This document shows positions 1,718-10,896 of a stretch of 64,000 nucleotides of DNA, piece after piece (position 1 is the stretch's first letter; each line of letters starts with the position of its first letter). The notes beneath the pieces are model-generated. The model searched no databases, had not been told where the DNA came from, and saw only the letters and a program-made list of their open reading frames with translations. The DNA lies in contig NZ_JAUVVF010000006.1 of the NCBI RefSeq assembly GCF_030604785.1, positions 35,641 through 99,640 on the forward strand. The letters are read 5' to 3'. Position numbers and translations under genes: made by a program. The stretch comes from Paracoccus sp. (in: a-proteobacteria). GTDB lineage: Bacteria > Pseudomonadota > Alphaproteobacteria > Rhodobacterales > Rhodobacteraceae.

Positions 1718-2623
1718 TCAGTGACCGCCCAGAAGCTGGCAGAGCTTGTCCAGCTGATCGAGGTCCTTGTAGGTGATCACCACCTGCCCGCCATCGATGC
1801 CCGCGTGGCGGATCTGAACGCGCATGCGGAGATTGGCCGACAGATCGTCTTCGAGCGCGCGTGTGTCGCTGTCGCTTGTCTCGGCGGCAGCACCCTTCCG
1901 GGGACGCGCAGCATCAGGATTATCGCCTTGCGCGAGTTTGCGGACCATGTCTTCGGTTTCGCGCACCGAGAGACCCTTTTCGATCACCTTGCGGGCCAGT
2001 TGTTCAGGGTTTGCTGACGTGACGAGCGCGCGGGCATGCCCGGCCGTCAGACGCCCTTCCTTGACCAGCTCCTGAACGGGCTGCGGCAGGTTCAGCAGGC
2101 GCAGGAGGTTCGCAATATGACTGCGGCTCTTGTTCAGGGCCTCGGCCAAACGCTCTTGGGTGTGGCCGAAGCGCTCCATCAATTGCTTGAAGGACGCGGC
2201 TTCCTCGATCGCGTTGAGGTCGGCGCGCTGGATGTTCTCGATGATGGCGACTTCCAGCATCTCGGTGTCCGAGAAGTCGCGGATGATGACCGGCAGTTCG
2301 TGAAGCTGCGCCATCTGCGCGGCGCGCCAGCGCCGCTCGCCTGCCACGATCTCGTAGAGATCCTTGTCGCGCGGATGCGGCCGGACGATGAGCGGTTGCA
2401 GGACGCCCCTGCTGCGGAGCGAGGCCGCCAGTTCGTTCAGCGCCTCGGGGTCGAAACTGCGGCGCGGCTGGTTCGGGTTCGCGGTGATCTGCTCGATCGG
2501 CAGCGTGGCGCGATCGCGGGCCGGGCGATTTGCGGCCGGTTCGTCGGCCACAGAGATATCGGCCATAAGGGCGGAAAGGCCACGGCCCAGACCCCGCTTG
2601 ATGGATTTGGGATCGGACATCAT
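1718..2623 (-). CDS. parB: Chromosome partitioning protein ParB
   Basis: KRGLGRGLSALM, GERRWRAAQMA, IIENIQRADLNAIEEA; adjacent to parA. Confidence 0.97.
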   Translation of the reverse strand: MMSDPKSIKRGLGRGLSALMADISVADEPAANRPARDRATLPIEQITANPNQPRRSFDPEALNELAASLRSRGVLQPLIVRPHPRDKDLYEIVAGERRWRAAQMAQLHELPVIIRDFSDTEMLEVAIIENIQRADLNAIEEAASFKQLMERFGHTQERLAEALNKSRSHIANLLRLLNLPQPVQELVKEGRLTAGHARALVTSANPEQLARKVIEKGLSVRETEDMVRKLAQGDNPDAARPRKGAAAETSDSDTRALEDDLSANLRMRVQIRHAGIDGGQVVITYKDLDQLDKLCQLLGGH

Positions 2624-3402
2624 GCAATCTCCGGCAGTTTGAGACGGGCGGCGAATTCGGCCGCAAGCTGGCGATAGGCAATGCTGCCCTTGGACAGCGG
2701 ATCGTAATGGAGAACCGGCATGGCGTGGGACGGAGATTCCGACACGCGCACGTTTCGCGGGATCACGGTGGTATAGACAAGCTCGCCCAAGGTCGCGCGC
2801 GCATCGGCTTCGACCTGTTGCGACAGGTTGTTCCGGTTGTCCGACATGGTGAGCACGACGCCGTTGATCCGCAGCGCCGGATTGGCGCTGGCGCGGACTT
2901 CGCGCACTGTCGTCAGAAGCTGCGAGAGACCCTCGAGAGCATAGAATTCGGCTTGCAGCGGAACGAGGACCGCATGGGCGGCGACCATTGCGTTGACGGT
3001 CAGCAGACCAAGCGCAGGCGGACAGTCGATCAGGATGATCGCGTCGCTTGGGGCGCCGTTGAGAGCCTGAGGCAGAAGCCGTAGACGGTCGCTGCGCTGC
3101 GACAGCTGCGCATCGGCCGATGACAGGTCCGAGGTCGCGGGAACGATGGAGAGGCGCGGAAATGCGGTCTTGCAGAGACCGGCCTCGAGCGTCACGTCGC
3201 CGGTGAGCAAGTCGAAGGAGGACCGGTCGCGTTGCTCTAGTTCGATGCCCAGGCCGGTCGAGGCATTGCCTTGCGGATCCAGGTCGATGAGGATGACCTC
3301 ATGCCCCATCTCCGACAAGGCGGCGCCCAGATTGATGGCAGTCGTGGTTTTGCCGACCCCGCCCTTCTGGTTTGCGATCGCCACGATGTGAGCATCAGGC
3401 AT
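2620..3402 (-). CDS. parA: Chromosome partitioning ATPase ParA
   Basis: ANQKGGVGKTTTAINLGAAL deviant Walker A, IDLDPQGNASTGLG. Confidence 0.97.
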   Translation of the reverse strand: MPDAHIVAIANQKGGVGKTTTAINLGAALSEMGHEVILIDLDPQGNASTGLGIELEQRDRSSFDLLTGDVTLEAGLCKTAFPRLSIVPATSDLSSADAQLSQRSDRLRLLPQALNGAPSDAIILIDCPPALGLLTVNAMVAAHAVLVPLQAEFYALEGLSQLLTTVREVRASANPALRINGVVLTMSDNRNNLSQQVEADARATLGELVYTTVIPRNVRVSESPSHAMPVLHYDPLSKGSIAYRQLAAEFAARLKLPEIA

Positions 3403-3985
3403 GGGCGATGTCCCTCACGTTGAGAATGGCTGCTTCGGGGTCCGTCTTACTGGTAAAGGCTTCGTAGCGGAAATGCCAGTGCTTCGCGGCCTCGTCAGCC
3501 TCTTGTTGCCACCTGCGACCCTTCAGAAGCCACGCTTCGCCTTGGGGTGCGAGGTGGCGCTGCAGAAAGGGCAAAAGCTTGTCGAGAGGAGCAAGTGCGC
3601 GTGCCGACAGATAATCGGCATTCTGAGGCGACAGATCCTCAATACGGCACGCATGGACCGTCACCTTGGGCAGTGACAACTCGCGGATGACCGAGCGCAA
3701 GAATGCACATTTGCGCGAGTCACTTTCGACGAGGGAAACCCTCAGATCGCGATCTGCCCAAGCGGCTGCAAGAACGATACCGGGAAGGCCACCCCCGCTG
3801 CCGATATCCAACCAGTGGCCTTGTGGTTGCTCGACAAGTTCGGTCAATTGAAGGCAGTCAGCAAGGTGGCGCTGCTGTAGATCGTCCAGAGTGGACGGCG
3901 CCACAAGGTTGATCGCTGGATTCCATTTTCGGAGAAGCGCGCTGTAGATTTCGAGCCGTTCGCCTGTTTCACGTGAAACACTCAT
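3395..3985 (-). CDS. rsmG: 16S rRNA (guanine-N7)-methyltransferase RsmG/GidB
   Basis: [16 protein letters not shown]; located between mnmG and parA. Confidence 0.95.
3965..3980. promoter_or_regulatory. parS centromere site, perfect 16-bp palindrome TGTTTCACGTGAAACA
   Basis: Exact match to the canonical ParB/Spo0J parS consensus; lies in codons 2-7 of rsmG. Confidence 0.95.
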
Positions 3986-5856
3986 GCGCTCCGCGCCTTG
4001 ACCGAGCGCTTGGCGGCGAGCAGCAGGACCGACAGCGCCGCTGGGGTCATGCCTTCGATTGCCGAAGCCTGCGCGAGTGTCGCTGGCCGCTGGTCTGACA
4101 ACTTACGCGCCAGTTCCCCAGACAAGCTTCCAATGGTTGCATAGTCAAGCTCGGCCGGCAGGACGATCCCTTCATTCTGCCGAAGCGCCTCGATGTCGCG
4201 CTGCTGACGGTCCGTATATTGAGCATACATGGCGTCATTCCGCAATTGCTGCCATGTATCCGCGCCAATTTTCGGCAGGCCAGGGCAGAGCTGGTAGATC
4301 GTCGAAACATCCAGATCCTCCGAGCCCAGCAGCGTGAAAATCGAGCGGCGCTGTCCGTCCTGACGCTTCTCGATTCCGGCCTTTGAAAGTTCGTTCGGGC
4401 TGAACAGTGCAGCTTCAAGCGCGGCACGCGCGGAATCATAGCCTGATTGTCGTTCCTTGAAGGCCCGCTCCCTCTCGGCCGACACACATCCGATCTGGAT
4501 CGCCTTGGGCGTAAGGCGTTGATCTGCGTTATCAGCACGAAGGGAAAGCCTGAACTCGGCGCGCGAGGTGAACATGCGATACGGTTCGGTTACGCCCTTG
4601 GTGACCAGATCATCCACCATGACGCCGATATAGCTGTCGGAGCGGCTGAACAAGACAGGGTCTGCCTGCCCTAAGGCTTCCCGCGCTGCGTTTAGGCCAG
4701 CGACGAGTCCTTGGGCTGCGGCTTCTTCATAACCTGTCGTTCCGTTGATCTGACCGGCGAGAAACAAGCCGGAGGCCGCCTTGACCGCCAAGCGGTGATC
4801 GAGGGCCCGCGGGTCCACATAGCTGTATTCCACCGCGTAACCCGGCTGAACAATCTCGGCCGCTTCCAGACCGCGGATTGAACGGACATAGGCGAGTTGG
4901 ACGTCCTCGGGCAGCGAAGTGGAGATCCCGTTCGGATAGACAAGCGGCGAATCGATCCCCTCAGGTTCAAGAAAGACCTGGTGGGACTCCTTGTGCGCGA
5001 AGCGCGTCACCTTATCCTCGATCGAGGGACAATACCGAGGCCCCCGACCTGAGATATGCCCGCCATACATGGCAGAACGCCCGATATTCTCGCTGATGAT
5101 GCGATGCGTTTCGGGATTGGTGTGAGTGATCGCGCAAGCGATCTGTGGCGCCTCCGGAGCTATGCTCAGGTACGAGAACAGCGACGGTTTATCGTCACCC
5201 GGCTGCTGCTCAAGCGCGTCCCAATCAATACTGTCGCGCAACAATCTGGGCGGAGTACCTGTCTTCAGGCGTCCAAGCGGCAGATTGAACTGGCGAAGGG
5301 AGTCAGCAAGCGGATTGGACGCCGCATCACCCCACCGGCCGGCGACACGGCTTTGATCCCCGATATGGATCCGGCCCTCAAGGAAGGTTCCGGTCGTCAA
5401 AATCGTAGCGCCGGACAGGACTTCGCCGAGGTTCGCCAAACGAACGCCGATCACACGCCGACCTTCGGTGAACAGGGCGACAACCTCGTCCAGGACCAGT
5501 TCCAAACCCCGACACTCTGCCAGCTCACTAGCTGCGTGGCGCTGATACAGTGCGCGATCCATCTGCGCCCGCGGACCTTGAACCGCAGGCCCCTTGCTGC
5601 GATTGAGCAACCTGAACTGGATTCCGGACTTGTCCGCGATCCTGCCCATCACACCATCGAACGCATCGATCTCACGGACCAGATGGCCCTTCCCGAGGCC
5701 GCCGATAGCCGGGTTACAGGACAGCGTTCCCACATCTTCAGCGCGCATCGTCACCAGCGCGACACTCGCGCCAAGCCGCGCTGCAGCCGTTGCGGCCTCA
5801 AGGCCAGCATGGCCGGCGCCAACGACGACGACATCATAGTGTTTCACGTGGAACAC
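3982..5856 (-). CDS. mnmG: tRNA uridine-5-carboxymethylaminomethyl modification enzyme MnmG/GidA
   Basis: [55 protein letters not shown]. Confidence 0.98.
5840..5855. promoter_or_regulatory. parS-like site, TGTTTCACGTGGAACA (one mismatch from the perfect palindrome)
   Basis: 15/16 match to the parS consensus, overlapping the mnmG start (MFHVKH). Confidence 0.88.
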
Positions 5857-7134: not shown

Positions 7135-8406
7135 TCAGGCGTTCATCGAATCGAAGAATTCACCATTACTCTTCGTCTGCTTCAACTTCGAAATCAGGAA
7201 CTCGATCGCATCCGTCGTCCCCATCGGGTTCAGGATCCGCCGCAGCAGATAGGTCTTCTGCAGGTCCTTCGCATCGACCAGCAATTCTTCCTTCCGCGTG
7301 CCCGATTTCAGGATATCCATGGCCGGGAAAACGCGCTTGTCGGCGACCTTGCGGTCCAGAACGATCTCGCTGTTGCCGGTGCCCTTGAATTCTTCAAAGA
7401 TCACCTCGTCCATCCGCGATCCGGTGTCGATCAGCGCGGTCGCGATGATGGTCAGGCTGCCGCCTTCCTCGATGTTCCGCGCCGCACCAAAGAATCGCTT
7501 GGGCCGCTGCAACGCATTCGCGTCCACGCCACCCGTCAGAACCTTGCCCGAGCTGGGAACCACGGTGTTGAACGCCCTACCAAGTCTTGTGATCGAATCG
7601 AGCAAAATCACAACATCTCGTTTATGCTCGACCAGACGCTTGGCCTTCTCGATCACCATCTCGGACACGGCGACGTGGCGGCTGGCCGGTTCGTCAAAGG
7701 TCGACGAGACGACCTCGCCCTTGACCGAACGCTGCATGTCGGTGACTTCCTCGGGCCGCTCGTCGATCAGCAGCACGATCAGGTAGCATTCCGGGTGATT
7801 GCGCTCGATCGAATGCGCGATGTTCTGCAGCAGCACCGTCTTGCCGGTGCGCGGAGGCGCCACGATCAGCGAACGCTGCCCCTTCCCGATCGGCGCCACC
7901 AGGTCGATGATCCGGGCGCTGCGATCCTTGATGGTCGGATCCTCGATCTCCATCTTCAGCCGCTCGTCGGGGTAAAGCGGCGTCAGGTTGTCAAAGGCCA
8001 CCTTGTGACGCGCCTTCTCGGGATCCTCGAAATTGATCCGCTCGACCTTGGTCAGCGCGAAATAGCGCTCGTTCTCGCCCGGCGCGCGGATCACGCCTTC
8101 GACCGTGTCGCCGGTGCGCAGCGAATGCTGCCGGATCATGTCGGGGCTGACATAGATGTCGTCCGGGCCCGGCAGATAGTTCGCCTCGGTCGAGCGCAGG
8201 AACCCGAAACCGTCCTGGACGACCTCCAGCACGCCCTCGCCGCCGATTTCCCAGCCTTCCTCGGCATGCTCCTTCAGGATCGAGAACATCATCTCGCCCT
8301 TGCGCATGGTCGAGGCGTTCTCGATCTCCCATTCCTCGGCCATCGACAGCAGATCGGCCGGGCTCTTGGCCTTGAGGTCGGACAGGTTGAGGCGTTCTTC
8401 GGTCAT
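7135..8406 (-). CDS. rho: Transcription termination factor Rho
   Basis: [33 protein letters not shown]; start set at [12 protein letters not shown] rather than the longer ORF start. Confidence 0.97.
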
Positions 8407-8535
8407 GCGGCTGCAATCTTTCGCTGGCGCAGGCTCATGCCGCGCAAGGATGATGATCGTCGGAGAATCCCGCACCGGACGGCCGGGTTTGAGGCGGCAC
8501 ATACGCGCCATCCCCGCCCGAGTCAATCTTGGGCA

Positions 8536-9003
8536 TCAGAACTTGATGATCACGGCACTCACGATCGCCACCATCAGCAGCGTCGGAACCTCGTTCATCA
8601 TCCGGTAATGGCGCCCCTTCTTCGCCGCGCCCGCCTTCAGGCGCCGCGTCTCGCGCACGCACCAGATGTGAAACGCCGTCATGCCCAGAACGCCGGCCGC
8701 CTTGACCCAAGGCCAGGCGAAGTCCCAGCCGACGATCCCCGGAACAGAAACCAGCGTCAGCCCGCTCAGCCATGTGGCGATCATCGCGGGACGCATGATC
8801 AGCCGCATCAGTTTGTCTTCCATGATCAGAAGGCTCGCCACCGGCTCGGCCTGACCGGCATGGCGTTCCGAATGATAGACGAAAAGCCGGGGCAGATAGA
8901 ACAGTGCCGCCATCCAGGCGATCACGGACATCACGTGAAACGCCTTCACGTAGGGATAGGTCAGCACAAGCCAGTCGAGCATCAGAGCCTCTTTCTTCTT
9001 CAC
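8536..9003 (-). CDS. hemJ: Protoporphyrinogen oxidase HemJ
   Basis: LTYPYVKAFHVMSVIAWMAALFYLPRLFVYH, typical HemJ; start may be the internal MLDWL. Confidence 0.92.
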   Translation of the reverse strand: MKKKEALMLDWLVLTYPYVKAFHVMSVIAWMAALFYLPRLFVYHSERHAGQAEPVASLLIMEDKLMRLIMRPAMIATWLSGLTLVSVPGIVGWDFAWPWVKAAGVLGMTAFHIWCVRETRRLKAGAAKKGRHYRMMNEVPTLLMVAIVSAVIIKF

Positions 9004-9442
9004 TTAAATATAAGAAGGAAAGAAAAGGATGTTGTAGATGTAGGCCCTGTGCATAGCGGGATTGCGGCAAAAGGCCCACGAAAATCCCCAGATCCACCTG
9101 ATGTGGACAGCCCTTGCCAACGGCCGCCTTCTAGCAAAAAGATCTTTATATTTCAATAACCAATCCTGTGGATAAGTTCGGGGATATTTTCCGGGGCGCC
9201 GGCCTGTCCACAGTTCGGCACGATCACCGTCCCGGGATGTCCACCTGTGGATCGCACGCAGCCGTTCCTGATTTGTCCGGGGCGGAATCCAGGCCCCTCG
9301 GCATCCGACCCGATTCCTGCCCATGATTCGACCCGATTCCCGCTCAGATTCGTCCACAGCCTGCGCCGTCCTTGCCACAGCGCGGGCTCTGTGCAGGGTC
9401 AGCAGGCTTTCTTCCTGCGCCGAAGCCGCTTAACCTGCGGAC
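9004..9442. other. oriC: Probable chromosomal replication origin (oriC) in the hemJ/aroE intergenic region
   Basis: Perfect DnaA box TGTGGATAA (revcomp TTATCCACA) at 9167-9175, degenerate boxes near 9104, 9204, 9246 and 9348, AT-rich stretch 9135-9164, divergent gene orientation on both sides, parAB/parS within 8 kb. Confidence 0.78.
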
Positions 9443-10312
9443 ATGTCAACACATTCAGAGCATGCGATGTCAGAAGAGGCCTCAATCCGGCACGCACCCC
9501 TGGCCGGAGTGATCGGACTACCGATCGCGCACTCCCGCTCGCCCCGGCTGCATGGTCACTGGCTTCGGCGCTATGGTCTGCCGGGTCACTACATCCCGAT
9601 GCCCGTCCTGCCCGAGCATCTGGCCGAAGTGCTGCGGGTCCTGCCGCAGGCCGGCTTTGTCGGCCTCAATGTCACGATCCCGCACAAGGAAGCCGTGCTG
9701 ACGCTGGCCGATACCGTGACGGATCGCGCGGCGCTGATCGGCGCGGCCAACACGTTGATCTTCCGCCCGGACGGCAAGATCCACGCCGACAACACCGACG
9801 GCTACGGCTTCATCGCCAATCTGCGCCAGAATGCGCCCGACTGGGCGCCCGAGGCCGGCCCCGCCGCGGTGATCGGCGCAGGCGGCGCTGCGCGTGCCGT
9901 CGTCGCCTCGCTGCTGGATTCCGGCGTTCCCGAACTTCGCATCGCCAACCGCACCCGGCTGCGCGCGGAACAGATCAAGGCCGAATTCGGCGCGCGTCTG
10001 GTCGTCTATGAATGGGCGCAACTGGGCAACATGCTGGACGGGGCCGCGACGGTGGTGAATGCGACCTCTCTGGGGATGGAGGGCAAGCAGCCGCTTCGGG
10101 TGCCGCTGGATGCGCTGTCGCCCGACGCGCTGGTCACCGACCTCGTCTATACCCCGCTGATGACCCCCCTTCTGACCGAGGCGCAGGAACGCGGCTGCCG
10201 CATCGTGGACGGGTTGGGCATGCTGCTGCATCAGGCTGCGCCGGGATTCGAGCGCTGGTTCGGCCACCGGCCCGAGATCGACGACGAGACCCGCCGGGTC
10301 GTTCTGGGATGA
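9443..10312 (+). CDS. aroE: Shikimate dehydrogenase
   Basis: GVIGLPIAHSRSPRLHGHWL, NVTIPHKEAV, NTDGYGF, GAGGAARAVV. Confidence 0.97.
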   Translation: MSTHSEHAMSEEASIRHAPLAGVIGLPIAHSRSPRLHGHWLRRYGLPGHYIPMPVLPEHLAEVLRVLPQAGFVGLNVTIPHKEAVLTLADTVTDRAALIGAANTLIFRPDGKIHADNTDGYGFIANLRQNAPDWAPEAGPAAVIGAGGAARAVVASLLDSGVPELRIANRTRLRAEQIKAEFGARLVVYEWAQLGNMLDGAATVVNATSLGMEGKQPLRVPLDALSPDALVTDLVYTPLMTPLLTEAQERGCRIVDGLGMLLHQAAPGFERWFGHRPEIDDETRRVVLG

Positions 10313-10896
10313 GCTATCGTCTGGGGCTGACCGGCAGCATCGGCATGGGCAAATCCACGACAGCCGCGATGTTCCGCGACCTTGGCCATCCGGTCTGGGA
10401 CGCAGACGAGGCCGTGCACCGGCTCTATGCCCCGGGCGGCGCGGCGGTCGAGCCGATCCGGGCGGCCTTTCCCGGCTGCATCTCGGCCGGTGGCGTCGAT
10501 CGCGGTCTGCTGAAACAGGCCTTGGCGGCCGATCCGGGCGCGCTGGCGCGGCTCGAGGCGATCGTGCATCCGCTGGTGGCGGCGGACCGCGCCGCCTTCA
10601 TCGCCGCCCATGCCTCGGCGCCGCTGGTCGTGCTCGACATCCCGCTTCTGTTCGAGACGGGCCGCGACCCCTCCCTCGACGGCGTCGCGGTCGTCTCGAC
10701 CGATGCCGAGACGCAGCGCGCCCGTGTTCTGGCGCGGCCCGGGATGACGGCGCAGATGCTGGACATGATCCTGTCCCGTCAGATGCCTGACGCTGAAAAG
10801 CGCGCCCGCGCCGACTGGGTCATTCCGACCGACGACCTGCCCACCACCCGACAGGCCGTCCTGTCCCTGATCGAGGATATCCGTTCCCATGCGTGA
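10309..10896 (+). CDS. coaE: Dephospho-CoA kinase
   Basis: [37 protein letters not shown]; ATGA overlap with aroE. Confidence 0.96.
   Translation: [195 protein letters not shown]

Follow-up and report, generated by a model that had tools for sequence, protein, structure and literature searches.

A probable chromosomal replication origin between hemJ and aroE in a Paracoccus genome

The chromosomal origin of Caulobacter crescentus, Cori, was identified experimentally and has a hemE/COG1806 context (PMC1914354). In the family Rhodobacteraceae the oriCs of 101 members have been predicted by Ori-Finder with curation (PMC6699656), and in Rhodobacter sphaeroides the OriC1 region was located from DnaA boxes, partition loci and cumulative GC skew (PMC6315104). 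For Paracoccus itself, chromosomes have been followed by marker frequency and all those studied replicate bidirectionally (PMC13342612). Here an intergenic region of 439 bases, positions 9004 to 9442 of a 64 kb stretch of a Paracoccus genome (the window, by which the whole stretch analyzed is meant), is considered. Its DnaA-box density, simulation and conservation make it very probably the chromosomal replication origin, a DnaA-dependent oriC at an inherited location.

The region resembles Cori (PMC1914354) in that several DnaA boxes and an AT-rich stretch share an intergenic gap some hundreds of base pairs long, and it shares with Cori an ancestral neighborhood that can be traced through the order hemJ-hemE-cluster-COG1806 in Stappia. 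It differs in that hemJ and aroE, rather than hemE and COG1806, are its flanks, in that its boxes are mostly degenerate, and in lacking a CtrA site of the form TTAA-N7-TTAA. As no such canonical site is present in the gap, it was not classed as a subtype of Cori; corresponding gaps in congeners have none either, though degenerate sites could remain. With the 101 Rhodobacteraceae oriCs (PMC6699656) it shares the family and the criteria of DnaA boxes, a GC disparity minimum and proximity to parAB. Similar criteria served for placing OriC1 in R. sphaeroides (PMC6315104), in contrast a two-chromosome organism, and the chromosomes of the marker-frequency work (PMC13342612) are from the same genus as the host of the window. 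Because earlier work had predicted Rhodobacteraceae origins (PMC6699656) and applied marker frequency to Paracoccus chromosomes (PMC13342612), the origin is of an already known type.

The gap separates two divergent gene runs identified by Pfam. To its left, on the minus strand, are parB (1718-2623), parA (2620-3402), rsmG, mnmG, mnmE, rho and hemJ (UPF0093; 8536-9003), and to its right, on the plus strand, are aroE (shikimate dehydrogenase; 9443-10312), coaE and dnaQ. Domain matches and strands thus agree with a sequence-only reading of this DNA, which had named these genes and had them pointing away from the gap on both sides. The nearest named match of the HemJ protein is from P. bogoriensis (88%), and the host genus is Paracoccus. 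An Rfam search of positions 8000 to 10500 found no RNA family.

The same reading had pointed to one perfect DnaA box at 9167-9175 and to degenerate near-matches around it, and both hold. The sequence TGTGGATAA is exactly at that place and has no second exact copy in the window; the draft genome of 3.14 Mb contains nine in all. Read on the minus strand the box is TTATCCACA, and it adjoins the AT-rich stretch and is aligned in many congeners. The near-matches are at 9102, 9204, 9237 (abutting 9246) and 9350. A minus-strand box at 9102-9110, CTGTCCACA (listed as TGTGGACAG), has a box at the same point in several congeners, and the plus-strand boxes CTGTCCACA at 9204-9212 and TCGTCCACA at 9350-9358 have a TCCACA that is aligned in most of them. 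Between these is an inverted pair, its left half the DnaA-like ATGTCCACC on the plus strand at 9237-9245, found by matrix scan, and its right half CGATCCACA on the minus strand at 9246-9254 (listed as TGTGGATCG), found by the scan and by congener alignment.

An intergenic cluster of DnaA boxes above chance, as looked for in an oriC, is thus what the gap contains. In 2000 runs of a first-order Markov simulation of the gap, its seven TCCAC cores (0.7 expected) were never reached and its six box-like sites (1.05 expected) were reached twice. No other of the 1589 windows of 440 bp taken from the 64 kb has as many DnaA-box-like sites, and the orthologous gap likewise tops the ranking in three congeners, each sampled over 0.4-1.2 Mb and designated G007 (18,591 windows), G023 (9,780) and G013 (29,207); the scoring matrix is hand-made and generic, so that the site counts are relative.

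Beside the perfect box is an AT-rich stretch at 9136-9165, probably the DNA-unwinding element looked for next to origin boxes, on sequence alone. The most AT-rich 24-mer and the most AT-rich 40-mer of the window both begin at 9136; the stretch described earlier is therefore present and is the AT maximum of the window, its start being 9136 and not 9135 as had been given. In congeners that retain the gap the AT peak is 100-165 bp from hemJ. Further toward aroE, at 9285-9351, is the densest GANTC cluster of the window, five possible CcrM methylation sites (9285, 9312, 9325, 9335 and 9347) in under 70 bp. Many close congeners have two to five such sites in the gap and others have none or one.

Conservation was followed in the window's own genome and 23 congeners, 24 genomes in which AroE has a strong match. 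The arrangement hemJ-gap-aroE, with 5-11 sites, is kept in 21 of them, and in the other three (G004, G009 and G011) aroE is elsewhere and the box cluster is still beside hemJ. At the origin of these three (loci L117, L120 and L121) other DNA has taken the place of the right flank, and in G004 and G011 the cluster adjoins an NMT1_3 family gene (periplasmic binding protein). The G011 hemJ alignment (L120) includes one TGA within the matched stretch, yet an open frame of 148 amino acids is listed there. At most other Rhodobacteraceae loci the cluster is upstream of hemJ, and aroE follows after about another 1 kb, the intervening gene in Ruegeria being maf (hemJ-ori-maf-aroE). The Stappia cluster is found next to PF03618/COG1806, on the far side of hemE and 1.4 kb upstream of hemJ.

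The partition system is close by, as expected for an oriC. With up to one mismatch allowed, the only parS sites in the whole of the host's own genome are those found by motif search at 3965-3980 (TGTTTCACGTGAAACA, at the start of rsmG) and 5840-5855 (one mismatch, at the start of mnmG), 3-5 kb from the gap. At the same threshold eight of nine congeners tested have parS only near the gap, among them G007 with four sites that bracket it within about 22 kb, and none was found in G013. Both sites of the window are inside the first codons of their genes, so that the centromere is embedded in coding sequence, and paired sites of similar spacing recur in congeners.

As the host's genome is a draft of 83 contigs, strand polarity was measured on sampled congener stretches, where a switch in strand asymmetry was found at a resolution of 25-200 kb. 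In the nearly closed genome G013 the polarity of KOPS (GGGNAGGG) gives a best origin at about 1.20 Mb, fitting 327 of 408 sites (a fraction of 0.801, against a maximum of 0.706 when strands were flipped as a null). The gap, at 1.2246 Mb, is within about 25 kb of this switch, an origin placed in it fits 323 of 408, and its antipode falls inside the fitted terminus interval of 2.58-2.78 Mb. Simple GC skew gives a weak, noisy signal here, and KOPS polarity is far sharper. A GC-skew check, proposed with the sequence-only reading and run on the congeners, gave minima near the gap in sampled stretches of G007 and G023, and in G013 a cumulative minimum at 1.305 Mb, about 80 kb off, with an origin at the gap worse than the optimum by 4.4 log-likelihood units. 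The best KOPS position in G007 is 0.92-1.0 Mb, versus 0.78 Mb for the gap, with an advantage of just one site; the G007 and G023 sampling is too coarse to pin the origin site. A search for a terminus site with a gamma-type dif pattern gave no credible candidate; dif prediction reportedly failed in P. denitrificans.

DnaA boxes can be regulatory, and the divergent promoters of hemJ and aroE must both be in the gap, which would allow the boxes to belong to a DnaA-regulated bidirectional promoter region with the origin elsewhere. That is very unlikely, as the cluster stays beside hemJ where aroE has moved and so is not an aroE promoter, as in Stappia it is parted from hemJ by hemE, and as strand polarity switches near the gap in congeners; neither promoter was retained as its explanation. 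Origins adjacent to dnaA are common in bacteria, and G023, with dnaA only 85 kb from the gap, cannot separate the two. In several congeners they are hundreds of kilobases apart. In G013 dnaA is at 1.85 Mb, 630 kb from the gap, the KOPS fit there is 251 of 408 versus the 327 of the best position, and GC skew is clearly worse; on both measures a dnaA-linked origin was rejected, and its probability is negligible.

Scarcely any more credible is an origin tens of kilobases to the right in this strain, with the gap a relic, although the local cumulative GC skew of the window bottoms at about 22-32 kb and the KOPS right of the gap have wrong-way polarity (5 plus, 11 minus). That stretch is rearranged relative to G013, in which the counterparts of the window genes at 16-22 kb are inverted and located at about 1.36 Mb, some 135 kb right of the gap, and because of this, rearrangement is the likely cause of the wrong-way polarity and of the displaced skew minimum; an inversion inside the right replichore, affecting part or all of about 14400-64000 of the window, is likely. 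A scan of the 64 kb found no comparable DnaA-box cluster there, and the sites of the gap are intact and conserved, so that an origin further right was likewise rejected. An origin in the gap itself, as had been proposed at the outset, is supported by box density, by conservation in genus and family, by KOPS and GC-skew switches in congeners at or near the gap and not at dnaA, by parS sites that are only nearby, and by synteny with Caulobacter Cori.

From established DnaA biology, DnaA-ATP would occupy the perfect box together with the degenerate TCCAC-type boxes and then oligomerize, the AT-rich stretch at 9136-9165 would be opened by DnaA for helicase loading, and bidirectional replication would fire from 9004-9442, with ParB on parS 3-5 kb away expected to segregate the new origins. 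A link between firing and CcrM methylation through the GANTC cluster is a guess. The fuller proposition, that in Paracoccus CtrA plays no part at the origin and control rests on a conserved set of mostly degenerate boxes for DnaA, joined in this lineage by a GANTC cluster through which CcrM methylation would time initiation, is speculative and rather improbable.

As an annotation the gap origin is solid yet ordinary and, being located as in relatives, will not surprise a specialist. It would fix the origin in a draft genome, which helps in rotating assemblies and in ori-ter analyses. For the wider group, it suggests that the alphaproteobacterial origin has kept one neighborhood, with flanks (hemE, COG1806, maf, aroE) that vary by lineage.
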